64,000 nt of DNA, from the NCBI RefSeq assembly GCF_000014585.1, contig NC_008319.1:1-64000 (forward strand). Direction: 5' to 3'. Shown here piece by piece: positions 14,323 through 52,549 of this stretch; positions within the stretch are counted from its first letter, which is position 1; each line of letters begins with the position of its first letter. The notes under the pieces were generated by a model, which worked only from the letters and a program-made list of their open reading frames with translations, was not told where the DNA came from and did no database searches. The position numbers and the translations under genes are program-made. Origin of the DNA: Synechococcus sp. CC9311. GTDB taxonomy: Bacteria; Cyanobacteriota; Cyanobacteriia; PCC-6307; Cyanobiaceae.

Positions 14323-15732
14323 GTGAGCAGCACACCTTCATGGAGACATCCGGCCTCTCCTCAACGTGGAATCAATCAATCGTTGACGGCTACAGCCTCG
14401 CTCCGACAGTTGTTGGAGAGCATGTCGCGGGAGCAGCGTTCCAATCAGGAGCTGCTGGTGTCGCTTGGGTTTGCTTTGCGCAGTTTCAGCAACCTCAACC
14501 GCTTTTTGGAGTTGGTGCCAGTGGTGGCTGCCCGGCTTGTGGGGGTGCAGGGTTCACTGCTTGTTCCGTTTCAGGCTGATGGACGCCTTTGGCGTGACCA
14601 GCTTCACATGCTTCCTGGTTCACGCACGGAGGGCATGTTGCGAGCGCTTGCTGCTCATGAACCTGGGAACATCATCGGGTTTGGATCCGACGAAAGCCTT
14701 GTGCGTGCCATGGATCGCTTGGTCCAGCGGCAGCTTGGAAGTGCTGGCTTGTTTGCAACGTCGTTGATCGCTCGTGGTCGTCCGAGGGGACGCCTCTATG
14801 TGTTCAATCCCTCGAGTCCTCTTGCTTGGAGTGACGTCTATCGCCGACATGTGCAGTTGGTGGCAGACCTCACTGGGGTTGCGATCGAAAATGATTTGAT
14901 GCTTCAGGAGGCCCGTCGCCACGAACGGGTTGATCGTCAGCTCAGCATTGGAGCGGATATTCAGGCCCAGTTGTTGCCTGATCACTGCCCTGTGATCGAA
15001 GGCGTGGATCTTGCGGCGCGTTGCCGGCCGGCCTTTCAAGTTGGCGGTGATTACTACGACTTCATTCCAACGCGGCCAGAACTGATTGGGCGCCGTCGGG
15101 AGCGCGGCCGTTGGGCCTTCGTGATGGGGGATGTGATGGGTAAGGGGGTGCCAGCAGGATTGTTGATGACCATGCTGCGCGGCATGCTGCGAGCAGAGGT
15201 TTTGAGTGGTTTGCCGCCCGATCGCATTCTTTATGACCTCAACCAATTAGCGCTGGAGGATCTGTCTCAGTCCCATCGGTTCGTAACGCTGTTTTATTCA
15301 GATTTCGATCCACGCACTAGGCGTCTTCGCTATGCCAACGCCGCCCACAACCCGCCGTTGATATGGCGTGCCCAATCACGGAAATTGATGCGCCTGGACG
15401 CCCCCGGGCTGTTGATTGGTCTTCAGCCTGAGGCGGAATATGGCTGCGAATCACTTGTGCTTGAGCCAGGTGACGTTCTTCTTTATTACACGGATGGAGT
15501 GACTGAAGCCCCTGGTATCACAGGTGATCGCTTTGATGAAGCGCGATTGATGCGCTCGCTTGAGCAAGCCTGTCGATCAGGAACTGGTTCCCAAGGGATT
15601 CTTGACCAGTTGTTCAGTCGCCTCGATCGTTTTGTGGGACCCACCCGTCAGTTGGATGACGATGCCTCGATGGTGGTGCTCAAGGTCAAAGAGGAGATCA
15701 TGCTGCCGTCTGTACCCAGGTCTTTGGCCTGA
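14323..15732 (+). CDS. PP2C-type serine phosphatase (RsbU/SpoIIE-like) with GAF-like domain
   Basis: Probable regulatory phosphatase. The C-terminal half, about residues 215-455, carries the PP2C/SpoIIE signature, with metal-binding segments QVGGDYYDF and [18 protein letters not shown] and the later [12 protein letters not shown]. Residues about 45-195 look like a GAF-type sensory domain. Such proteins usually act on anti-sigma-antagonist partners, but no partner gene is adjacent. GTG start; 469 residues. argH follows after 31 bp. Confidence 0.88.
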
Positions 15733-15763
15733 CAAGCTGAGGACAAGCGCAGAGGAGAGTGAC

Positions 15764-17182
15764 ATGGCAGGGGGTGTGACCGGTGGAGGCTCCGCAACCT
15801 GGAGTGACCGGTTTGAGCAGGGATTGCATCCGGCGATTGAACGTTTTAATGCTTCGATTGGCTTTGATATCACTCTTCTTCAAGAGGATCTGGATGGGTC
15901 GATCGCCCACGCCCGCATGCTCGCTGATTGCGGTGTGATCCAGGTCGAGGAGGCAGATCAACTTGTGGGTGGTCTTGAACAAGTCCGCCAGGAAGCGGCG
16001 TCAGGACTCTTTCAGCCAGGGCTCGCCGATGAAGATGTGCACTTCGCTGTTGAGCGACGCCTGATTGCCCTGCTTGGCCCGGTTGGCAAGAAATTGCACA
16101 CCGGACGGAGTCGTAACGACCAGGTGGGAACTGATTTGCGGCTTTGGCTGAGGCGGCGTTTGGATGAGCTTGAACAGCATTTGCTTGGTTTTCAGCGCGC
16201 CTTGCTTGACCAAGCCAACCTCCACAGCAACACCCTGATTCCTGGCTACACGCATCTGCAGCGTGCCCAGCCTCTCTGCCTCGCACACCATCTTCTTGCC
16301 TATGTGGAGATGGTGGAAAGGGATCGGCAGCGGATGGCGGACTTGCGCAAACGCTTGAATCTGTCTCCTCTGGGTGCTGCAGCTTTGGCAGGCACTCCGG
16401 TACCGATTGATCGCAGGAGCACTGCATCGGCCCTTGGCTTTGATGGCATCTATGCCAACAGCCTGGACGCTGTGAGTGATCGCGATTTCACCGTGGAATT
16501 TTCGGCCGCGGCCTCATTGGTGATGGTGCATCTCAGTCGTCTTGCTGAGGAGGTGATTTTTTGGGCGTCCGAGGAATGTGGCTTTGTACGGCTCACCGAT
16601 CGCTGTGCAACGGGCAGCAGCCTGATGCCGCAGAAAAAGAATCCCGATGTACCTGAATTGGTGCGTGGCAAATGCGGGCGCGTGTTTGGCCATTTGCAAG
16701 GCCTTCTCACGATGATTAAGGGCCTACCACTGGCCTACAACAAAGATTTTCAGGAAGACAAAGAGGCGCTCTTTGATGTGGTGGCCACCACATCGCAATG
16801 CCTTGAAGCGATGACGATTTTGCTGCAGGAAGGCCTGAGCTTCAGAACCGAACGCCTCGAGGCGGCTGTTGCTGCGGACTATTCCAATGCCACTGATGTG
16901 GCCGACTATCTCGTGGCTAAGCAGGTTCCTTTCCGTGAGGCCTATCAATTGGTGGGTGCCGTCGTGAAACATTGCCTTCAAGAAGGCGTGCTTCTTCGCG
17001 AACTGACTCTGGAGCGTTGGCAGCAGTTTCATCCTGCGATCGAGGCTGATTTGTTTGAGGCGTTAACACCTCGCAATGTGGTGGCAGCTCGAACCAGTGA
17101 AGGGGGAACAGGTTTCGATCGCGTCAATGAACAGCTGGCGATTTGGAACCAACGATTTGGGCTTGCCGATCAGGTTTTTTGA
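15764..17182 (+). CDS. argH: Argininosuccinate lyase
   Basis: Last step of arginine synthesis: cleaves argininosuccinate to arginine and fumarate. The superfamily signature [12 protein letters not shown] is present around residue 285, and the substrate-binding segment HTGRSRNDQ around residue 110. The ATG at 15764 is preceded by a good AGAGGAGAG ribosome-binding site, so the longer open frame running back into the phosphatase gene is not used. Product 472 residues, normal for the family. Confidence 0.97.
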
Positions 17183-17308
17183 TTGGTGATCATTCGGCTC
17201 AGATCGGACTACGCTGAAGGAGCCAGAGGTTCAACGATCTTCTTCAGGTCCATGAATTGTTGGCCCTTTGATTCCATCGGCCCCTCTTAACTTCGGTCCA
17301 TCAGATAA

Positions 17309-17854
17309 GTGAGCATTTTCGTCGGCAATCTTCCGTTCCGCGCTGAGCAGGAAGACATCATTGAATTGTTTTCCACCTATGGAGAGGTCACGAATTGTGC
17401 CCTCCCTCTAGAGCGCGACACCGGTCGTAAACGTGGCTTTGCGTTTGTCGAAATGAGCGACGAAGCAGCCGAAGCATCTGCCATTGAGGCGCTTCAAGGT
17501 GCTGAGCTGATGGGTCGTCCCCTGCGCATCAACAAAGCTGAGCCCCGTGGCAGTGCCCCTCGTCGCGATTTCGGCGGTGGTGGCGGCGGCAACTACGGCG
17601 GTGGTGGCGGTGGCAACTACGGCGGTGGTGGCGGTGGCAACTACGGCGGTGGTGGCGGTGGCAACTACGGCGGTGGTGGCGGTGGCAACTACGGCGGTGG
17701 TGGTGAGCGCCGCTCTGGTGCGAGTGGCTGGGAAGATCGCAGCTATGGAAGTGGAGCTCCTCCAGCTGGCGGCAGTGCCTACGACGATGGCCGTACCCGT
17801 CGCCGCCGTGGTGGAGCCGACGACAACAGTGGCTATGGCGGTGCCGAAGGCTGA
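17309..17854 (+). CDS. Glycine-rich RNA-binding protein (RRM)
   Basis: Cyanobacterial Rbp-type protein of 181 residues. The RRM, residues 1-80, has RNP2 (IFVGNL) and RNP1 (KRGFAFVEM). The C-terminal tail is almost wholly Gly, Asn, Tyr and Arg, with five GGGGGNYG units and then an Arg-rich end. Family members in other cyanobacteria are often cold- or light-responsive. GTG start. A roughly 125-bp leader separates it from argH, suggesting its own promoter. Confidence 0.93.
   Translation: MSIFVGNLPFRAEQEDIIELFSTYGEVTNCALPLERDTGRKRGFAFVEMSDEAAEASAIEALQGAELMGRPLRINKAEPRGSAPRRDFGGGGGGNYGGGGGGNYGGGGGGNYGGGGGGNYGGGGGGNYGGGGERRSGASGWEDRSYGSGAPPAGGSAYDDGRTRRRRGGADDNSGYGGAEG
17573..17704 (+). repeat. 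Five tandem 24-bp repeats in the Gly-rich tail
   Basis: Unit GGCGGTGGTGGCGGTGGCAA plus CTAC, encoding GGGGGNY with one more Gly. Five full copies start at 17573, 17597, 17621, 17645 and 17669, with a half copy at 17693. Only one base differs, in the first unit (GGCGGC for GGTGGC). Such near-identity implies recent copy-number change by slippage. Confidence 0.95.
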
Positions 17855-17872
17855 TCGCCTTCTCGGTGCTGC

Positions 17873-18877
17873 TCAGAGCCCGGCATCAAGCAGTTGCTGG
17901 GCTGCTTCCTCAATGATTTCAATCCCAGCACCAGCTCTTTGAGCTTTGGTGCTCAGATTGTTGCGCCAATACCTTGCTCCAGGCACCGCTTCTACAACCT
18001 GGACGAGATGGCGGCATAGATCCCAAAGTCGTCCTCCTCGCTGAAGATGACGTTCGGCGTGGGGGATCAGCCCAAGCACGACATCGGAGGCCAGCACTTG
18101 GCGCGGCGCCGCGCCATAGATCAGGCTGTCGATTTCACGCCAGCGCAGTGGGTGGGCATAGGCGGCCCGTCCAACCATCGCCCCATCGCAGTGTTTTAGG
18201 GCGTTGAGGCAATCCTCAGGGGTATCAAGGCCACCATTTAATTCAATGGTGAGAGCCGGCCTGGATTCTTTTAAGGCGATCACTCGATCGTGCTGAAGAG
18301 CAGGAATCGTGCGGTTTTGTTTGGGATCTAATCCTTCCAGCCATGCTTTACGGGCATGCACTGAAAAACGTAGGGCTCCAGCTTCAGCCACTTGGTCAAC
18401 AAACTGTCTGAGCAGGTCATCACTGTCGAGATCATCGATCCCTACGCGATGTTTCACCGTGACGGGAAGGGATGATGCCGCCACCATGGCCTCCACACAA
18501 CGCGCCACGGTTTGCGGTTCTGCCATTAAACAAGCCCCAAAATTCCCGGCTTGCACCCTTGGACTCGGGCAGCCCACATTGAGGTTGATCTCGTCGTACC
18601 CCCAATCAGCTGCCATCCGCGTGGCGTCCGCTAGTAACGCAGGATCGTCGCCCCCCACCTGTAGCGCTATTGGATGTTCCTCTGCGTCGAAGTCCAGCAG
18701 CCGTTCACGGCGCTTGCTGTGGTGTAGAGCTTGCGCCACCACCATTTCGCTGTACAGCAGGCTTTGTTTGCTGATTTGGCGCATCAGCATGCGGAAATGC
18801 CGATCCGTGCAATCCAGCATGGGCGCCACACTGAAGCGCCAGGCGGGTTCCCGGTCGGGGTTGAGTGGGGAATCCAT
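17873..18877 (-). CDS. dusA: tRNA-dihydrouridine synthase A
   Basis: FMN enzyme that reduces uridines in the tRNA D-loop. The 334-residue barrel begins FSVAPMLDCTDRHFR, the DusA form of the substrate loop; it also has LNVGCPSPRVQ with the catalytic Cys, TVKHRVGID and IELNGG, with the flavin phosphate-binding GAMVGRAAY. Length and motifs fit DusA rather than DusB. Convergent with the RNA-binding protein gene, 18 bp apart. Confidence 0.95.
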   Translation of the reverse strand: MDSPLNPDREPAWRFSVAPMLDCTDRHFRMLMRQISKQSLLYSEMVVAQALHHSKRRERLLDFDAEEHPIALQVGGDDPALLADATRMAADWGYDEINLNVGCPSPRVQAGNFGACLMAEPQTVARCVEAMVAASSLPVTVKHRVGIDDLDSDDLLRQFVDQVAEAGALRFSVHARKAWLEGLDPKQNRTIPALQHDRVIALKESRPALTIELNGGLDTPEDCLNALKHCDGAMVGRAAYAHPLRWREIDSLIYGAAPRQVLASDVVLGLIPHAERHLQRGGRLWDLCRHLVQVVEAVPGARYWRNNLSTKAQRAGAGIEIIEEAAQQLLDAGL

Positions 18878-18943
18878 TCCTCCATGCTGCCTCGCTCCCT
18901 GCCCTTGTCGCTTTAGAACTGGAAGCGTTTAAAGACACTGCAG

Positions 18944-19456
18944 ATGACGACTTCGATGCAGCCTTGGTTGTTGAGCCGACGTTCGATGCTTTTGGCCTCG
19001 ATTGCCGGGATGGTGGGAGTCTTAAGAGCCCCGGATCAAGTGTTGGCTGCTTCTAAGGCCGGTGAGGCAACTTGGGATCTCAGCGATGGGGAATGGAAAA
19101 AACGTCTGTCGCCTGAGGCCTACCAGGTGTTGCGTCAGGAAGGCACAGAACGACCATTCACCAGTCCGTTTAACAACGAAAAACGAGAGGGCACCTACCT
19201 CTGTGCCGGTTGCGACCTGCCGTTGTTTGCTTCCACCGCCAAGTTTGATAGCGGTACCGGTTGGCCCAGTTTTTGGCAGCCTCTTCCTGGCGGTGTGGAG
19301 ACAAAAGTAGATTTCAAATTAATTCTTCCTCGCACTGAATATCACTGCAGACGCTGCGGTGGGCATCAGGGCCATGTTTTTAATGACGGTCCCCGACCGA
19401 CGGGTAAGCGCTACTGCAACAACGGAGTCGCCTTGCGTTTCCAACCCACGGCATGA
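18944..19456 (+). CDS. msrB: Peptide-methionine (R)-S-oxide reductase, Tat-exported form
   Basis: Repairs oxidised methionine. The catalytic domain, residues about 45-170, has two zinc CxxC pairs (CAGC, CRRC), the FDSGTGWPSF motif and the catalytic Cys in RYCNN. Ahead of it is a twin-arginine-type signal, LLSRRSMLLASIAG, with a cleavage-like AxA region before residue 40. This suggests export to the periplasm or thylakoid lumen, inferred from sequence only. The start lies 66 bp from the divergent dusA start. Confidence 0.93.
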   Translation: MTTSMQPWLLSRRSMLLASIAGMVGVLRAPDQVLAASKAGEATWDLSDGEWKKRLSPEAYQVLRQEGTERPFTSPFNNEKREGTYLCAGCDLPLFASTAKFDSGTGWPSFWQPLPGGVETKVDFKLILPRTEYHCRRCGGHQGHVFNDGPRPTGKRYCNNGVALRFQPTA

Positions 19457-20696
19457 CCTGATCGTGATCGGTGGTGGGCCTGCCGGTTTTATGGCAGCGA
19501 TCACCGCCGCCGAACGAGGGGTTCGTGATGTTCTGATCTTGGAGGCGACCCCAGAAGTGCTCACAAAAGTGCGCATCAGCGGTGGCGGTCGCTGCAACGT
19601 CACCCATGCTTGCTGGGATCCCATGGAGTTGGTGGGTCATTACCCCCGGGGAAGCAAACCATTGCGGGGTCCCTTCAGTCAGTTTGCGTGCGGGGATTCC
19701 ATTGCTTGGTTCGATGAGCACGGACTCACGCTTGTGGAAGAGTCCGATGGACGCATGTTTCCCCAGCAGAATCGCTCTGAGGCGGTTGTGGAGTGCCTGA
19801 GGCGGGCTGCTTTAGCAGCAGGGGTAAAGATTCAGTGCGGCTCAGCTGTGCGTGAACTCAGCTGCTCCGCCGGTGGAGACTTTCAACTCTGCGATCAACG
19901 CTCTGCCCTTCATCACACCAAGCGCGTGTTGCTGGCCACTGGCGGCCATCCCAGTGGACGACGTCTTGCTCAGGATTTAGGTCACAGGATTGTGCCGCCG
20001 GTGCCGTCGCTGTTCAGCTTGAAATTGCAGGCTCCTGCTTTGACCGCGTGCAGCGGCATTGCGCTGGATGACGTGAGCTTGGATTTAAAGGTTGGTGATC
20101 AGCGCTTTCGTGAGAAGGGCCGGGTGCTGATTACCCATCGGGGTGTGAGCGGGCCTGCGATCTTGCGGCTCACCGCATTTGCAGCGCGGGCCCTCCATGC
20201 CAGTCGTTACAAGGGTGAGTTGCGAGTGGATTGGAGTGGTGGATTGGGGCGTGAGCGTGTTCAGCAGAGGTTGCAACAGGCGCGGCGTGAGCAGGCGCGA
20301 CGCACGCTGGTGGCTGCCAAGCCGTTTGAGAATTTGCCCAGACGTCTTTGGCTTGCCTTCTTGACGCAGGCGGGAGTGGCTGGAGAACGCCGCTGGGCAG
20401 ATCTTCCCGTAAAGGCGGAACGCAATTTGGTGGAGACCCTCTGCGCTCAACGTTTATCGGTCCAGGGTCGCGGCCCGTTCGGGGAAGAATTTGTGACCGC
20501 TGGTGGCGTTGATCTGGGCGAGGTGAATTTGGCAACGATGGAAAGTCGTCGTTGCACTGGGTTGTATTTAGCGGGTGAATTACTGGATGTGGATGGGGTA
20601 ACCGGAGGCTTTAATTTCCAGGCCTGTTGGAGCGGCGGCTGGCTTGCGGGTAAAGCGATTGCTGCAGCATTGGCTCCTGTTGATGGGCCTACTTAA
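19383..20696 (+). CDS. FAD/NAD(P)-binding flavoprotein, HI0933 family
   Basis: Putative oxidoreductase with an N-terminal dinucleotide fold (DLIVIGGGPAGFMAA), the family segment VRISGGGRCNVTHA and the C-terminal GEVNLATMES with TGGFNFQACWSGG, typical of the HI0933/YhiN group. Substrate unknown. The conserved part begins near 19454, two bases before the msrB stop. The possible starts in this frame (19359, 19374, 19383) all lie inside msrB; I use 19383, so the start is uncertain. Confidence 0.85.
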   Translation: MTVPDRRVSATATTESPCVSNPRHDLIVIGGGPAGFMAAITAAERGVRDVLILEATPEVLTKVRISGGGRCNVTHACWDPMELVGHYPRGSKPLRGPFSQFACGDSIAWFDEHGLTLVEESDGRMFPQQNRSEAVVECLRRAALAAGVKIQCGSAVRELSCSAGGDFQLCDQRSALHHTKRVLLATGGHPSGRRLAQDLGHRIVPPVPSLFSLKLQAPALTACSGIALDDVSLDLKVGDQRFREKGRVLITHRGVSGPAILRLTAFAARALHASRYKGELRVDWSGGLGRERVQQRLQQARREQARRTLVAAKPFENLPRRLWLAFLTQAGVAGERRWADLPVKAERNLVETLCAQRLSVQGRGPFGEEFVTAGGVDLGEVNLATMESRRCTGLYLAGELLDVDGVTGGFNFQACWSGGWLAGKAIAAALAPVDGPT

Positions 20697-20698
20697 CA

Positions 20699-20720
20699 AG
20701 CCCTGCTCAAGCAGAGCTTT
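20699..20720 (+). terminator. Weak hairpin between convergent genes
   Basis: AGCCCTGC at 20699-20706 pairs with GCAGAGCT at 20711-20718 with one mismatch and a TCAA loop, followed by a short T run. It lies in the 47-bp gap between the flavoprotein stop and the repeat-protein stop. Too weak for certainty. Confidence 0.35.
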
Positions 20721-20743
20721 TGGCTGGATGATTGCTGGCTAGC

Positions 20744-23700
20744 TCAGACTGATATCGAGGTTGTTGTGGAATCAGTTGAGTTAAGGATGGAGAAGAACTC
20801 GCCCCAAGCATCGGAGAGCTGTTCAGCGGAGCGCCAGCCGGTACCGGATAAAAATGAGGCGGTTTTATCGGTCGTCCAAACCTTGTATTGATCTTCTCGT
20901 GTGGTGCCGTCAGCGCCTTCAAGGAGAAGATAAAAGTTCCCAGAGTTATCTTCTGCATTGACGGCTTGTGTGACATCCCAGTTAGGGATGCCTGTTGCTG
21001 AGAAGTTGCGTGTGCTGCCGTTGGCACGTTGTTTGCTGATGGTGAGTGGGTCACCGTCGTTAAAGAGGGTGTAAACGGAAGTGTTGTCTACAAGACCATT
21101 CTGGTCTTCATCAGCGGTAGGGATGCCAATGAGCTCGTCGCCATCGAAATCGATGTTGAAGCGTTCTTCCCATCCAGCTTGAACGAGCTGTTCAGCGGAG
21201 CGCCAACCGGTGCTGGATGCAATCGAGCCGCTGATATCAGTCGTCCAAACCTTGAATTGATCTTCTCGTGTGCTGCCGTCAGCGCCTTCAAGGAGAACAT
21301 AAAAGTTCCCAGAGTTATCTTCGGTATTCACGGCTTGTGTGGCATCCCAGTTGGGGATACCTGTTGCTGAGAAAGTGCGTGTGCTGCCGTCGGAGCGTTC
21401 TTTAGTGATGGTGAGTGGGTCACCGTCGTTAAAGAGGGTGTAGACGGGGGTGTTGTCTACAAGACCGTTGTTATCTGCATCCACTGCGCCGTTGTCACTG
21501 TCGCTTCGTTTTATCTCAAAGGAAGTTTGCTGAATGTTGGAATCGGAGAGAAATTGTTCCCAATCAGAATTGTCTACAGGAAGCTCAGAGTTATCTCTAA
21601 AGACAAACTGGTTACCAGCTTTGTCTGATCCTTCTATTTGTCTGAGGACATATTCTCCGTTGGCTGCAAAGGGATCAATGAATTCGCTTGTTCCTATCGA
21701 TCCTTCTAACAGGTTGCCTTCAAGTGAGTCAGATGGTAGAAGAGAAAATGTAATTTCTTGATTGCTATCAACAGACTCAAAACTTAGAAATAGGAAGTCG
21801 ATGCCTGAAGCGTCATCCGTGAAGCTCACATCTGCTGTGAGGAAAGCTCCTCCTGGTTGAGAGGGGTCAATCGTGGTAGCGCTGAGGTTTAGTCCTGTGA
21901 TGGTCGGTGCTGTGATGTCTGATTGGGAGTTATTAATTTCAAATGAAGTTTGCTGAATGTTGGAATCGGAGAGAAATTGTTCCCAATCAGAATTGTCTCC
22001 AGGAAGCTCAGAGTTATCTCTAAAGACAAACTGGTTACCAGCTTTGTCTGATCCTTCTATTTGTCTGAGGACATATTCTCCGTTGGCTGCAAAGGGATCA
22101 ATGAATTCGCTTGTTCCTATCGATCCTTCTAACAGGTTGCCTTCAAGTGAGTCAGATGGTAGAAGAGAAAATGTAATTTCTTGATTGCTATCAACAGACT
22201 CAAAACTTAGAAATAGGAAGTCGATGCCTGAAGCGTCATCCGTGAAGCTCACATCTGCTGTGAGGAAAGCTCCTCCTGGTTGAGAGGGGTCAATCGTGGT
22301 AGCGCTGAGGTTTAGTCCTGTGATGGTCGGTGCTGTGATGTCTGATTGGGAGTTATTAATTTCAAATGAAGTTTGCTGAATGTTGGAATCGGAGAGAAAT
22401 TGTTCCCAATCAGAATTGTCTACAGGAAGCTCAGAGTTATCTCTAAAGACAAACTGGTTACCAGCTTTGTCTGATCCTTCTATTTGTCTGAGGACATATT
22501 CTCCGTTGGCTGCAAAGGGATCAATGAATTCGCTTGTTCCTATCGATCCTTCTAACAGGTTGCCTTCAAGTGAGTCAGATGGTAGAAGAGAAAATGTAAT
22601 TTCTTGATTGCTATCAACAGACTCAAAACTTAGAAATAGGAAGTCGATGCCTGAAGCGTCATCCGTGAAGCTCACATCTGCTGTGAGGAAGGCTCCTCCT
22701 GGCTGAGAGGGATCAATCGTAGTAGCGCTTAGGTTTAGTCCTGTGATGGTCGGTGCTGAGCTATCTTCTCCGGTTTGAGGTTCTGCGCTGCTGTTTGCAA
22801 CAGTGAATGAACGGGCCGCTTCCGCGATATTGAGTGCATCAAGTTGAGTATCCCAGTTATCTTCAAAGCGTGAGTAGAATTCACCATTACCGGCTTGGTC
22901 ATCGACCTGAATTGAACTAATAATGTAATCACCACTGGCCGCGAAGCGATCGAGTTGGCTGCTACTTGTGATGGTGCCATTCCGAGCATTACCAGTCAGC
23001 GCATCTCCACCAAATTCAGATAGCTTGAAGCTAAGTTGGATTTCCTGGCCGCTGTTTACTTCTGTGTAAGTGATAAAGATATTACTAAGACCAGACAGGT
23101 CGTCAGAGAATGTTATGGCTCCAGAGAGAAAAGCTCCACCAGGTGCTGAGGGGTCAAGTGTTGTGGTGTCGAGAGTGACGTCGATTAGTTGAGGTGCCTG
23201 GGTGTCTGCGCTGCTGTTTGCAACAGTGAATGAACGGGCCGCTTCCGCGATATTGAGTGCATCAAGTTGAGTATCCCAGTTATCTTCAAAGCGTGAGTAG
23301 AATTCACCATTACCGGCTTGGTCATCGACCTGAATTGAACTAATAATGTAATCACCACTGGCCGCGAAGCGATCGAGTTGGCTGCTACTTGTGATGGTGC
23401 CATTCCGAGCATTACCAGTCAGCGCATCTCCACCAAATTCAGATAGCTTGAAGCTAAGTTGGATTTCCTGGCCGCTGTTTACTTCTGTGTAAGTGATAAA
23501 GATATTACTAAGACCAGACAGGTCGTCAGAGAATGTTATGGCTCCAGAGAGAAAAGCTCCACCAGGTGCTGAGGGGTCAAGTGTTGTGGTGTCGAGAGTG
23601 ACGTCGATTAGTTGAGGTGCCTGGGTGTCTGCGCTGCTGTTTGCAACAGTGAATGAACGGGCCGCTTCCGCGATATTGAGTGCATCAAGTTGAGTATCCC

Positions 23701-45489: not shown

Positions 45490-45561
45490 AGCGGGTGACC
45501 GGATTCGAACCGGCGACGTCCAGCTTGGGAAGCTGACATTCTACCGCTGAATTACACCCGC
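45490..45561 (-). tRNA. tRNA-Gly (anticodon TCC)
   Basis: On the minus strand: acceptor GCGGGTG (45561-45555) pairs with CACCCGC (45497-45491). D-arm contains CAGCGGTAGAATG. The anticodon stem CAGCT/AGCTG surrounds loop TTCCCAA, giving anticodon TCC. The T-arm contains GGTTCGAATCC. The discriminator is T; CCA is not encoded. Confidence 0.96.
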
Positions 45562-48045: not shown

Positions 48046-49632
48046 ATGTCATCAGTCCAGAGCGAAGGTCAGCGCAAACCGGCCATCGTCATTCTTGATT
48101 TCGGTTCCCAGTACTCGGAACTGATTGCACGCCGCGTTCGTGAGACGGAGGTGTTTTCGGTGGTGTTGGGCTACAGCACCAGCGCTGAAGAATTACGGGC
48201 CTTGGCTCCGCGTGGAATCATCCTCAGCGGAGGCCCAAGTTCGGTTTATGCCGATGAGGCTCCCCTCTGCGATCCAGCGATTTGGGATCTGGGCGTCCCT
48301 GTGCTGGGGGTCTGCTACGGCATGCAGTTGATGGTTCAGCAGCTTGGTGGTCAGGTGGTCGCGGCTACGGGTAAGGCTGAATACGGCAAGGCTCCGCTCA
48401 AGGTGGATGACCCCACTGCACTTCTCACGAATGTTGAGAGTGGCTCCACGATGTGGATGAGTCACGGTGATTCCGTGGAGGCTTTGCCCGACGGCTTCCT
48501 GCGTTTGGCTCATACAGCGAATACGCCTGAGGCGGCTATCGCGAATCACAAGCGACGCTTATACGGCGTTCAATTTCACCCTGAGGTGGTTCATTCCACT
48601 GGTGGAATGGTGATGATTCGCAATTTTGTGTATCACATCTGTGGTTGTGAACCGGATTGGACCACTGAGGCTTTTATCGATGAAGCAGTGGCAAATGTGC
48701 GTGATCAAGTTGGTCAAAAGAGAGTGCTGCTTGCTCTCTCAGGAGGCGTGGATTCTTCAACCCTTGCTTTTTTATTGAAGAAAGCGATTGGAGATCAACT
48801 TACCTGCATGTTTATTGATCAAGGCTTCATGCGTAAAGGCGAACCTGAATTCCTGATGGAGTTCTTTGATCGTAAATTTAATATTCATGTTGAGTATATC
48901 AATGCTCGTGAACGGTTTATCAAAAAGCTTGATGGCATTACGGATCCAGAAGAGAAGCGCAAAATCATTGGCACGGAATTCATCCGTGTGTTTGAAGAAG
49001 AGAGTCGCCGTCTAGGCCCATTTGATTATTTAGTCCAGGGCACGCTTTATCCGGATGTGATTGAAAGTGCTGGCACCAACGTGGATCCCAAAACCGGGGA
49101 GCGTGTGGCTGTGAAGATCAAGAGCCATCACAACGTGGGAGGTCTTCCTAAGGATCTGCGCTTCAAGTTGGTGGAGCCCCTACGCAAGCTGTTTAAGGAT
49201 GAAGTTCGTAAGGTTGGTCGAACGCTTGGGTTGCCCGAGGAGATCGTGAGTCGCCATCCATTCCCAGGCCCTGGACTAGCGATTCGCATCTTGGGCGAAG
49301 TCACGGAGGAAAAGCTCGATTGTTTGCGTGATGCAGATCTGATTGTGCGCGAGGAAGTGAACGCAGCGGGGCTCTATCACGACATTTGGCAGGCGTTTGC
49401 GGTGCTTCTTCCCGTGCGCTCAGTGGGTGTGATGGGTGATAAGCGCACTTATGCCTGGCCGATCGTGCTGCGCTGTGTATCGAGTGAGGACGGCATGACC
49501 GCTGATTGGTCGAGGCTTCCTTATGACCTTATGGAAGTGATTTCCAATCGGATTGTGAATGAGGTGAAAGGAGTGAATCGCGTGGTAATGGACATCACTA
49601 GCAAGCCTCCAGGAACGATTGAGTGGGAATAG
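48046..49632 (+). CDS. guaA: GMP synthase (glutamine-hydrolysing)
   Basis: Converts XMP to GMP. The class I glutaminase has [14 protein letters not shown], catalytic Cys in GVCYGMQLM and the His-Glu pair in VQFHPEVVH. The ATP pyrophosphatase loop [11 protein letters not shown] follows, and the dimerisation domain ends [11 protein letters not shown]. 528 residues, intact. Its last 15 bp are duplicated at 50830-50844, so the 3' end doubles as an attachment site; the coding sequence is not damaged. Confidence 0.97.
49618..49632 (+). other. Attachment-site copy at the guaA end (attL or attR)
   Basis: ATTGAGTGGGAATAG, the final five codons' worth of guaA including the stop (IEWE, TAG). Identical to 50830-50844. 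Sequence outside the 15 bp differs on the right (T versus C). Confidence 0.85.
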
Positions 49633-49671
49633 TTCAGGGGGTAAAACCTCTGTCTCTCACTCAAAAAGTCG

Positions 49672-49751
49672 GTTTCACCCAAGTTTCACCTGAGATTTAG
49701 GTGACGGAGTGACAAGGGTTCTCGGGTGGTGTGTTTCACCTTCGTTTCACC
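49672..49751 (+). repeat. Two pairs of GTTTCACC sites near the guaA end
   Basis: GTTTCACC at 49672-49679 and 49683-49690, and at 49733-49740 and 49744-49751. Within each pair the repeat distance is 11 bp, about one helical turn. They resemble arm-type binding sites of tyrosine recombinases. Confidence 0.85.
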
Positions 49752-49795
49752 TGTCACCTTGTCACTGTCTCTATGGAGATGTCGTGGAACTCCTG

Positions 49796-49896
49796 TTTTC
49801 TCTACGGATGGTTTCTGTCCGTTTGTAGAGATGACGTAGAGAAAAAGACCACTTCTAAACAGCACATTTCTACGACTATTTGTAGAGAAATCGTAG
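49796..49896. repeat. TTTGTAGAGANNNCGTAG repeats and an 11-bp inverted repeat
   Basis: TTTGTAGAGA plus three bases plus CGTAG at 49822-49839 and again at 49879-49896. TTTTCTCTACG at 49796-49806 is inverted as CGTAGAGAAAA at 49835-49845. A related TTTCTCTACCGATG is at 50699-50712 in the far end. They may bind an excision or regulatory protein. Confidence 0.65.
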
Positions 49897-49973
49897 GAGA
49901 ATGCCTAGGTATTCAGGCACGGGAGGTCTGTTGTGGGTAGTCGGGGAAGTAATGCCAACTCATATGCCCTTTA

Positions 49974-50068
49974 TGAGGCACTGAGGCACCTGAGAGTGGA
50001 TGTTGAGGCACCTGTGCCCTACATCTACAAATGACTGGATAAGCAGGTTCATCTGCCCGTTGAGGCAC
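49974..50068 (+). repeat. Four TGAGGCAC repeats before the integrase remnant
   Basis: Copies at 49974, 49982, 50004 and 50061, the first two directly adjacent. The last lies 18 bp before the GTG of the recombinase remnant. Could be an operator array or a replication-type iteron; function unknown. Confidence 0.6.
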
Positions 50069-50085
50069 GTGCGTGGCAGATAAGA

Positions 50086-50553
50086 GTGCCCGTGCCGAAC
50101 ACGAAGGGCATCAGGAAGTCCTTGAAGGTGATTGAGAGGGCAGATGCCATCGCAAAGGCAGAGGAGATGGTGATGGAAATCAGGGTCACTCTCAAACAGG
50201 GAGGAAGTGTTCTGCCGATGCCTGTTGAGGAGGTGGTGGAAAGGTTTCTCAAAACCAAACGTGCCCGTATCCGTGAGGAATGGGAGGGCAAGGATGCCGC
50301 AGGGAGAAGAAGCATCACCAAGGAGAGGTATGCCCTGATTGAGGGGAAGTTACGGAACTATCTGGTGCCGTTTCTTGGTGCCAAGACCGATGCCCGCAAC
50401 GTTCCGTTTTCCAAGTGGAACGAATGGGAGGGATGGAGGGTGGAAAGCAGGCACACCCGCACTGGTGGCAAACCAAAGGCAATCACCATCCAAAACGAAA
50501 TGGGTGGCAAAAGGTTCCTGCTGTCTGGGGTGCTGATGCGGAACCCTGATTAG
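50086..50553 (+). pseudogene. Truncated tyrosine-recombinase/integrase, N-terminal part
   Basis: 155 residues read from GTG. It looks like the N-terminal and core-binding part of a phage-type integrase of picocyanobacterial elements: AIAKAEEMVMEIRVTLKQGG, SITKERYALIEGKLRNYLVPFL and KPKAITIQNEM. The reading departs from the expected pattern after that and stops at NPD. The catalytic domain with its R...HxxR...Y set is absent in all frames downstream, so it is not an active recombinase by itself. Confidence 0.7.
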
Positions 50554-50630
50554 GTGCTCGTCCCTACAAAAGAGTTCGTGCGGATATATAAAACTCTCCT
50601 TGTTCCTCACACGGGAATGCGTCGAACTTG

Positions 50631-50661
50631 GGGAGGTCTGGGGGGACCTTCCTTTTTTTTT
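50631..50661 (+). terminator. Intrinsic terminator inside the element
   Basis: GGGAGGTCT at 50631-50639 pairs with GGACCTTCC at 50644-50652 (two G-T pairs) around GGGG, followed by nine T. It lies downstream of the integrase remnant. Confidence 0.85.
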
Positions 50662-50755
50662 GCCTCTAATGACTTCTCTACGAGGCAAAACCCAACAGTT
50701 TCTCTACCGATGTGTCTAGGAGAACTTTTTCGTCCAATCTCACTGGGACAAATGA

Positions 50756-50774
50756 GTTTCACCCCAGTTTCACC
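50756..50774 (+). repeat. Third GTTTCACC pair, at the far end
   Basis: GTTTCACC at 50756-50763 and 50767-50774, again 11 bp apart, 56 bp before the second attachment copy. It has the same orientation as the other two pairs. Confidence 0.85.
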
Positions 50775-50829
50775 CCGTAAAATGAGTGCTGAGAACCCAG
50801 TTCAGTCCTCATTCTTGGGAAACCGACTT

Positions 50830-50844
50830 ATTGAGTGGGAATAG
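50830..50844 (+). other. Second attachment-site copy
   Basis: ATTGAGTGGGAATAG, an exact copy of the guaA end, reading IEWE-stop in one frame though no guaA sequence precedes it. It marks the far boundary of the element. Confidence 0.85.
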
Positions 50845-51022
50845 CTCTAAATAAGCTCTTTTAAAGTTTAGTATTTGTGCTCGATTGCAGAGGCTGAAGT
50901 GTGATTGCCTTGAATTGTGTAGTAACTTGATAAGAGATAGGCCTTCTGGTTGAATGCTCCGGCATGAGTATGTTTCGCTGTCATTCTGTGTACGGCTGCA
51001 GTCTGCGGTGGAAAATATGGCC

Positions 51023-51056
51023 GTTCCGGCTATGATTTTCTGGAATCTTCCGGAAC
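51023..51056. promoter_or_regulatory. Inverted repeat upstream of the orphan ORF
   Basis: GTTCCGG at 51023-51029 and CCGGAAC at 51050-51056, 20 bp apart, ending 19 bp before the ATG at 51076. May be an operator or hairpin. Confidence 0.35.
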
Positions 51057-51075
51057 TCTTGTTTGGTGCGGGTCC

Positions 51076-51462
51076 ATGACTAAGCATGCCTATTATTCTT
51101 CCCTCGAAATCGTTCAAGAGGGGAAATGTTATCGCTGTGACCTCCCGTATAAATCTTTGAGTCAAAAATTTGAGCGAGGTGAGGTAATAGATCATTTCTA
51201 TACAATATTTTCGCATCCGATAAATAACGGAGTTATTAACAGGTATGGGATGTCCGCCTATGACTTTTCGGTAGATATTGTCGACAACGAAAAGGAGTCT
51301 GTTGAAAATTATGACCTCAGTTGGCTCTTCTCTGTAGATTGCTGGCAAAAGATTTCCCAGCCTCGCGCTTATCCTTATCAACATCGTCTTAATCTCCTGG
51401 GCTTATTAAGTAAGCATGTTGAATGTCGCTCAGAGCGAAGTGGGCTGAAAGAGGATTCTTAA
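51076..51462 (+). CDS. Orphan hypothetical protein with CxxC
   Basis: 128 residues, AT-richer than neighbouring core genes. The segment CYRCDLPYKSLSQKF, then EVIDHFYTI, recalls the first half of an HNH nuclease (CxxC, then DH), but no second CxxC or Asn-His follows, so this is only a resemblance. An open frame of 191 codons also exists on the opposite strand at 50809-51384. Either could be real; the plus-strand ORF is favoured by its Cys motif and by staying outside the att repeat. Confidence 0.45.
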   Translation: MTKHAYYSSLEIVQEGKCYRCDLPYKSLSQKFERGEVIDHFYTIFSHPINNGVINRYGMSAYDFSVDIVDNEKESVENYDLSWLFSVDCWQKISQPRAYPYQHRLNLLGLLSKHVECRSERSGLKEDS

Positions 51463-51901
51463 TGTATGGCTTGTATGGCTGGCTGGATTCATTGCGCTGG
51501 CTATAGGTTGATTGTTGTGTTGTTGGCGAATTCTTTATTCAAGGCTTAAGGTTCTAGGCTTGTTGTTAGGCCTGGTTGCTATTACGTGTCTTGGGGCCTG
51601 CTGTTCAGGGTTTGGTTTTTCAAGAATTCAATAGAAAAGAAATCACGTTGACAGCTCTGCCTTGACCTCTTGTGTTAGCTGTTATTGAGTAAATCTGCCT
51701 CAGAAGTAGCAAGATCTCTTTTGCGCTACCTCTTTAAAAACTGCAAATACTGCTCAATGGTTGCTCGTGAAAAAGCGTCTTTTCGGCTTGATTAAGTGTA
51801 TTGCATTCAAATGTTCGAGCTCTTGGTGAGAAATTCAGTTGATTGATTTGGATGGTTGACCTTGCTTGCGTGCATTTTGGTAGGGGGCTGGTGGATGAGC
51901 C
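51463..51901. other. Gene-poor stretch
   Basis: 439 bp with no ORF I can support; AT-rich, with short frames only. It may be decayed island DNA plus the promoter of the next gene. Confidence 0.6.
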
Positions 51902-52549
51902 TTGGCGTCGATATCCTTAGCGCCCGGCATCAATCCCTTGACCGCTGCTCAAGAGCAGGACCTCCAGCTTCAGCGCCGTCTTCAGCAAGACAGCATTTTG
52001 TTGGCAGGGAAAACGATCTACATCAACCCTTTCTTGTATTGGCGTCGCTTCGACAGCAATACAGATCGTTGGTTGCGCGAACCGGGTCAGCTTCCCGAAG
52101 AGCAGATTGCCTCGAATCGAAGTCGCTTTTATCCCGAGCTCGACTGGACCCTGCTGGATGACTCCAACCGGGAGATCAAGGACGGAGCTGTGGAGATGTT
52201 CCTCAAGAGCCTCGAGTTGATAGGGACGTTTCATCCAGAGCTCAGCTCCGGGCATTTGCTGGAGGTGGAGCGCAAGATGGCGATCACCAAGAAGCGATCG
52301 TTCGAGCGTTGGGTTGAGAAGTCGTACCGGCGACGTGCCAAGCAGGAAACTAGGGAACGACGTCGATTTGATCGTGATCGTTTTTGGCGTTCGTGGGGGG
52401 AATGGCTTGCTTTAGAAGCGACTCATCACGCTTTGGCCCCAGCTGTGGCCTTGTTGGTGCTCACAGGTGTTGGTGGCTGGTGGATCGGGTCATCTAATTC
52501 AAGTTGTCCGACACTTTTGCCTCCTCCGGAGCAGACTGGAGTCCGCTGA
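51902..52549 (+). CDS. Hypothetical membrane-anchored protein
   Basis: 215 residues from TTG, 4 bp after an in-frame stop, so the start is nearly forced. The middle is polar with a basic region (KKRSFERWVEKSYRRRAKQE); a membrane segment at about residues 178-197 (APAVALLVLTGVGGWWIG) is near the C-terminus. A conserved-looking marine cyanobacterial protein of unknown role. Confidence 0.7.
   Translation: MASISLAPGINPLTAAQEQDLQLQRRLQQDSILLAGKTIYINPFLYWRRFDSNTDRWLREPGQLPEEQIASNRSRFYPELDWTLLDDSNREIKDGAVEMFLKSLELIGTFHPELSSGHLLEVERKMAITKKRSFERWVEKSYRRRAKQETRERRRFDRDRFWRSWGEWLALEATHHALAPAVALLVLTGVGGWWIGSSNSSCPTLLPPPEQTGVR

Follow-up and report, generated by a model that had tools for sequence, protein, structure and literature searches.

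The 3′ end of guaA, the gene encoding GMP synthase, occurs twice within about 1.2 kb in the genome of Synechococcus sp. CC9311 (GCF_000014585.1, contig NC_008319.1), which raises the question of whether the segment between the two copies is what is left of a mobile element and, if so, how it became so short. The stretch analysed, hereafter called the window, comprises positions 1 to 64,000 of the contig. An earlier note, made from the letters of the window, had proposed a collapsed integrative element. Comparison with related genomes, referred to below by G numbers (loci by L numbers), favours this interpretation: with a probability of roughly 85 %, a tyrosine-recombinase integrative element inserted at the 3′ end of guaA and was later reduced by deletion, the segment being its shell.

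The last 15 bp of guaA, ATTGAGTGGGAATAG, recur exactly at 50830-50844, and the repeat can be extended to 18 nt with one mismatch. In the complete genome of 2,606,748 bp the 15-mer, at up to one mismatch, has these two forward copies and none on the reverse strand, the backward control giving no match, and elsewhere in the window no further copy was present at up to two mismatches (0.06 expected). The concern that the sequence might be common at random can therefore be set aside.

The 1.2 kb between the two cores of the putative attachment (att) sites contains the truncated N-terminus of a tyrosine integrase fused to the last codons of a DUF1651 gene, and has arm-type repeats at both ends (Table 1). 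Positions 49918-50514 align with residues 2-200 of the intact 465-amino-acid integrase of G193 with 71 % amino acid identity. The remnant by itself matched no Pfam family, so that it is identified as an integrase only via this relative, in which the C-terminal half of the protein matches Phage_integrase (Pfam). Homology with the integrases of G193 and G217 runs to 50504, and homology with DUF1651 genes, compared at their 3′ ends in G193, G075 and a second copy in the same genome, extends from 50496-50501 onward. The resulting overlap of 4-9 nt is the expected trace of a deletion at a short repeat. The left arms are at offsets nearly equal to those in G193, the arms of which are GTTTCACC, as in the window; those of the G203 element are ACTACCCC. 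The recombinase remnant, spaced repeats and terminator listed in the earlier note were all recovered, the last of these by a consensus scan only, and its statement that no cargo is present was nearly right, the exception being the DUF1651 tail of about 16 codons.

Table 1 Features of the guaA locus and the 1.2-kb unit (positions in the window)
Feature	Position	Strand	Remark
guaA, GMP synthase, host gene	48046..49632	+	528-amino-acid open reading frame; Pfam GMP_synt_C and GATase; 3′ end the integration site
Left att core, final 15 nt of guaA	49618..49632	+	exact repeat
Inverted repeat, 22 nt	left arm 49655..49676, other arm 50819..50840	+	91 % complementary; other arm overlaps right core
Arm-type repeat pair 1, GTTTCACC twice	49672..49690	+	11 bp apart; +39 from core
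Arm-type repeat pair 2, GTTTCACC twice	49733..49751	+	11 bp apart; +100 from core; same offset in G193
TCTCTAC / GTAGAGA repeats between arms and integrase	49797..49896		repeat listing
Integrase remnant	49933..50504	+	N-terminal ~190 codons from GTG (49933); catalytic domain lost
In-frame TGA inside integrase remnant	50032..50034	+	sole stop in about 199 codons
Putative deletion junction	50496..50504		DUF1651 homology starts before integrase homology stops
DUF1651 gene tail (..KVPAVWGADAEP stop)	50501..50549	+	last ~16 codons; homologous to L039:9678-9944, PF07864 E 5e-26
Terminator-like hairpin, then T run	50630..50653	+	consensus scan: 3 sites vs 1.4 in shuffles
TCTCTAC repeats, right side	50674..50712		repeat listing
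Right arm-type repeat pair, GTTTCACC twice	50756..50774	+	11 bp apart; matches left arm at 0.94
Right att core, second copy of guaA end	50830..50844	+	exact repeat, 15/15 nt
Host flank	50846..52059	+	82 % over 1230 columns to element-free relative G101

When 31 genomes of the same genus were searched with the guaA end, 28 matched, and all 28 loci were inspected downstream. Complete guaA-bounded elements were found in G203 (5693 bp), G217 (7034 bp) and G193 (9111 bp), each encoding an integrase of 458-465 amino acids and bounded by repeats which equal the window core at 14-15 of 15 nt; the G217 element has an exact 18-bp bounding repeat. In G211 an integrase gene and a gene for a 318-amino-acid protein are present at guaA and reach the contig end. 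Together with the window, these make up five of the 28 loci with an element. Another 18 loci are empty: they have no extra core, and the next conserved gene lies at most 204 bp from guaA. Five (G101, G205, G220, G210 and G202) lack a core copy but hold 1.1-3.3 kb of other sequence. At one of the latter (L143, G210) the conserved flank gene occurs twice, approximately 6 kb apart, with degraded pieces of integrase in between. As judged by eye, the sequence past the attR core in G193 and G203 closely resembles the post-guaA sequence of the empty partners G181 and G218, respectively, so that occupied and empty alleles of one site can be recognised. Both the larger elements and the empty sites which the earlier note had asked for in relatives thus exist, and with the deletion junction in the unit itself they support its proposal that a larger guaA element collapsed.

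The ancestor would have been an element of the G193 kind, with the integrase gene beside guaA, the conserved 318-amino-acid protein, cargo, and a DUF1651 gene near attR. Recombination of attP, bearing its own copy of the guaA end, with guaA would account for the insertion and would have left guaA intact. An internal deletion at the 4-9-nt overlap may then have removed everything between about codon 197 of the integrase and the final ~16 DUF1651 codons. The DUF1651 gene (PF07864) closes the gene series of the G193 element, with inserted transposase-like open reading frames (ORFs) and attR after it, and internal deletion of such an element would directly yield the structure seen in the window. 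The ORFs between DUF1651 and attR (L039:9987-11152) are two in number, on the minus strand, and were recognised as transposase-like by eye. We infer that the unit was already at guaA when the deletion occurred and that an incoming integrase would act on the remnant, which would be excised only upon entry of an element with a matching one.

Several observations weigh against this account. The closest relative by guaA, G101 (96 % over 233 bp), is element-free and has about 90 bp after guaA which are absent from the window, the alignment starting at 50846, so that the two do not form a perfect before/after pair. An intact parent of this very element was not found, the best match being G193 with 75 % DNA identity. 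DUF1651-like tails occur also elsewhere in this genome and in G075, and the right half of the unit could consequently derive from another DUF1651 copy. The comparison covered one genome per species.

Further copies of the DUF1651 tail and/or the stretch following it are located at 2579854-2580017 and 775985-776250 of G000:C1 (L035 and L036), G000 being the genome of the window, and similar copies are found in G075, G089 and G034. The tail and the following stretch appear to form a repeated module. DUF1651 genes are linked to the host response to cyanophage in PMC5490813. In the host flank of the window, the ORF 51076-51462 (128 amino acids, without clear family) is 91 % identical in the element-free G101 and had no tblastn match at 1e-4 in the remaining same-genus loci.

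A search of 399 genomes of the order at E 1e-30 detected the integrase family to which the remnant is assigned (alignment A1) in 14. In nine of these (G193, G217, G203, G009, G240, G263, G363, G348 and G078) the gene is full or nearly full and lies beside guaA, that of G078 having one internal stop and no second core at its locus; G000, G086 and G210 have remnants, and the weakest two matches, G275 and G402, had no guaA within the stretch read. With G211 and G011, which came from other searches and have a full integrase gene at guaA, the total is 11 relatives, in all of which the integrase adjoins guaA, in the first unit. The 318-amino-acid protein is encoded in ten of the 11, a relative of serine resolvases in nine and a Rep-like protein in eight (tblastn). 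The Rep matches PF23343 in both copies scanned and has the motifs LHxH (8/8 aligned sequences) and YxNKS (7/8), from which it is presumably of the HUH type.

The 318-amino-acid protein of G193 had no Pfam match at E 0.1 and no PHROG match at E 0.01, and among eight genomes checked the protein was encoded in the four that have an intact element and was missing from the remaining four. The conserved protein of the intact elements (L097:3766-4716 and homologues, alignment A2) is all-helical in structure prediction, with a mean predicted local distance difference test score (pLDDT) of 80.9 and a predicted template modelling score (pTM) of 0.43, and no PDB match reached E 0.001. The weak resemblance to the Raf1 chains of 6kkm (E 1.3 and 2.7; probability 0.93 and 0.72) was not relied on.

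The elements of G203 and G211 are 95.7 % identical over 4073 bp and their guaA ends 83.0 % over 348 bp; since the elements are far more alike than the guaA ends of their hosts, it is concluded from these sequences that guaA elements pass between hosts. Named carriers are Prochlorococcus AG-402-M15, AG-409-O23 and AG-347-G20 and Synechococcus AG-679-A04. Searches with the A1 integrase and A2 318-amino-acid alignments gave no confirmed relative in IMG/VR; the integrase, the 318-amino-acid protein and the Rep had no phage match at 1e-5, and the Rep had no match in plasmids. A distant blastn search in phages returned only short guaA-end matches, in two Listeria and two Klebsiella records (OR846794, OR848131, MK416010 and MK422448). 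These phage records, bearing a stretch like the guaA 3′ end, suggest that further elements likewise use guaA for attachment.

To place the window unit among such elements, 77 guaA loci were examined, of which 28 were those of the same genus, 39 came from mostly single-contig genomes picked from 160, and 10 were added for an integrase or arm match. The sample is not random (arm matches of some of the 39, such as G161, G086, G056 and G010, were known beforehand), and at 10 loci, left open, the conserved flank was not reached; arm-match loci outside the 77 are G065, G073, a second contig of G079, G100, G122, G151, G116 and G109. In the 320,610 bp of these loci, extra copies of the locus' own guaA end, at up to two mismatches, numbered 51 forward and 1 reverse. 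At least one extra core was present at 25 loci, a count which, the loci having been selected, is no prevalence; nine of them have a full integrase and 16, the window included, have none within the stretch read. On this evidence guaA is taken to be a recurrent integration site in marine Synechococcus and Prochlorococcus.

The units range from 69 bp to 13.5 kb (median 2586); the 69-bp "unit" of G031 is doubtful, its arms being poor (6 of 8). Arms, scored as direct repeats with 7 or 8 of 8 positions alike at a spacing of 11 bp, were detected at 29 of the 60 unit starts and at 38 of the 51 unit ends, compared with 15 of 600 control positions, which leaves 31 starts and 13 ends with no such pair at the threshold. 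Other spacings from 6 to 20 gave at most 4 each, save spacing 8 at unit starts (12/60, unexplained). Motifs TCTCTAC and TCGTAGA occurred within 300 bp of 34 and 28 of the 60 unit starts, respectively, compared with 90 and 73 of 1200 control windows. The two ends had like arms in 18 of the 21 units with distinct arms (mean 3.5 and maximum 9 in 2000 permutations), a count which excludes two 139-bp units (G117 and G173) where the same repeat falls in both windows (20/23 with them). Across a core, arms were alike in 2 of 8 cases, and between different genomes in 157 of 1085 pairs. Since arms match within units, each core-to-core stretch behaves as a single element, with or without an integrase.

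Tandem arrays 3′ of guaA were observed at L170/L171 (G086), L168 (G161), L173 (G056), L164 (G173), L175 (G130), L174 (G110) and L040 (G185), these seven genomes belonging to genus g56. The G086 array has 8 extra cores in the 39.6 kb read, and in its unit 15085-23288 (counted from the guaA stop) an integrase with 93 % DNA identity to the intact one of G011 is cut after the N-terminus. No full integrase was present in what was read of these arrays, several units of which have one to three large ORFs, TPR-sulfotransferase and TPR-methyltransferase genes among them. PF00589 was not found in the stretch read of ten integrase-less carriers (G086, G161, G056, G173, G130, G110, G010, G185, G031 and G039); in G173 a match is present ~55 kb downstream of guaA, beyond that stretch. 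Ten long ORFs were scanned out of 70 of at least 80 amino acids listed from integrase-less units: five encode TPR with sulfotransferase or methyltransferase domains, one a methyltransferase without TPR match and one TPR alone, the rest being a DNA methylase, a helicase-like protein and an acyltransferase. It may tentatively be proposed, as something possible rather than probable, that guaA in marine picocyanobacteria is a cassette platform, at which integrase-bearing helpers import and remove integrase-less units of one to few genes between copies of the guaA end, leaving arrays. If so, units of 1.2 kb, as in the window, or of 139-200 bp would be the empty shells of this traffic, and a good part of the array units would carry TPR-sulfotransferase or TPR-methyltransferase genes.

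The existence of integrase-less units also bears on where the window unit lost its integrase. It could have collapsed elsewhere and reached guaA as a non-autonomous mini-element, moved by an integrase-bearing relative which has since departed. The 16 of 25 extra-core loci with no full integrase in the stretch read are in keeping with such traffic, as are units as short as 200 bp (G003) whose two ends have distinct arms that match each other. An integrase-bearing element in G011 and an integrase-less unit in G161 share 92.5 % identity over 268 bp at their left ends, with host guaA ends at 75 %. However, no second genome among 201 searched has the fusion of integrase and DUF1651, and the window unit retains a recognisable integrase fragment whereas the shortest units have none, which makes arrival in the collapsed state unlikely. 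Still less credible is retention of the fragment as a small DNA-binding protein without catalytic domain, occupying the arms and hindering excision or incoming elements: a 155-amino-acid ORF is open from a GTG at 50086, and the G086 array likewise keeps only an integrase N-terminus, cut near a similar, non-identical residue (~183-190 compared with ~197), but the homologous start is cut off from the remainder by the TGA, the G086 copy also holds a stop, the G210 remnant keeps C-terminal pieces instead, and two cases are too few. That no mobile element is involved, the guaA end having been copied by chance or duplication next to a pseudogene, would suit an exact repeat of only 15 bp but is contradicted by the comparative data, namely the one-sided orientation of the guaA-tail copies, the excess of 11-bp-spaced arms over controls and the agreement of arms within units.

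Whether the collapsed unit could still move was considered from the gene content of its genome. No other relative of the guaA-type integrase and no 318-amino-acid partner protein was found there, so that no movement is expected now; three Phage_integrase matches are present elsewhere in the genome, none of them retrieved by the guaA-type integrase. Autonomous excision needs a complete integrase of the element's own, and in the window unit the catalytic domain is absent. The unit is probably inert at present and mobilisable only in trans, and the earlier suggestion of a minimal element moving by another integrase found no support in this genome. Movement by a foreign integrase is possible in principle, since both sets of arms are retained and integrase-less units are common at the guaA of relatives. 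In the literature on integrative and conjugative elements, cis-mobilizable elements (CIMEs) are derivatives in which attL and attR are retained and the integrase is lost. By its sequence the window unit, with cores and arms at both ends and a truncated integrase, is one of the integrase-less units of guaA and CIME-like.

Taken singly, the window unit represents, in decayed form, a kind of element already known in principle. The picocyanobacterial guaA family, with its variable arms, Rep, 318-amino-acid protein and integrase-less arrays, is a variant for which no earlier report was found: the literature searched for guaA and tyrosine-recombinase islands, in which subscription journals were mostly uncovered, gave no guaA island in picocyanobacteria. 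Because arm repeats differ between units and agree within a unit, helper and passenger could be matched by sequence, and the arrays allow a test of trans-mobilisation. Since guaA is essential and widespread, hosts that differ greatly can offer one and the same landing site to an element which restores the end of the gene.

The tycheposons of Prochlorococcus are likewise tyrosine-recombinase islands of the same organism group, with tRNA genes at their borders (PMC10872708). Unlike tycheposons as described there, the window unit is bordered by guaA and not by a tRNA gene, the sole tRNA of the window (45490-45561) being 4 kb from the unit on the opposite side of guaA. The guaA arrays would give marine Synechococcus and Prochlorococcus a second route of island building besides tycheposons.

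The Dehalococcoides ssrA islands lie in tandem between direct repeats that copy the 3′ end of a single essential gene, and 15 of them, without an integration module, were suggested to be possible cis-mobilizable elements, the term used in that report (PMC3146451). Tandem units, gene-end direct repeats and the lack of an integration module in some units are shared with guaA, whereas the target there is a tmRNA gene and the recombinase the serine recombinase DsiB, in contrast to guaA and a tyrosine recombinase (Phage_integrase) here.

The closest parallel in target is GIsul2 of enterobacteria, which inserts at the guaA 3′ end at the site GAGTGGGA, contained in the window core ATTGAGTGGGAATAG (PMC9376610). 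Its gene set includes alpA, stbC and resG, and it has three att sites, attL, attLR and attR (PMC9376610). A tblastn search of plasmids with the cyanobacterial integrase, a query other than GIsul2's own integrase, gave five weak records, none of them enterobacterial. The GIsul2 integrase catalyses excision and integration of the island as well as of the CR2-sul2 unit, and knockouts show that the integrase and the att sites are required (PMC9376610). By analogy with CR2-sul2, for which such movement by the GIsul2 integrase has been demonstrated, mobilisation of the window unit in trans is possible.

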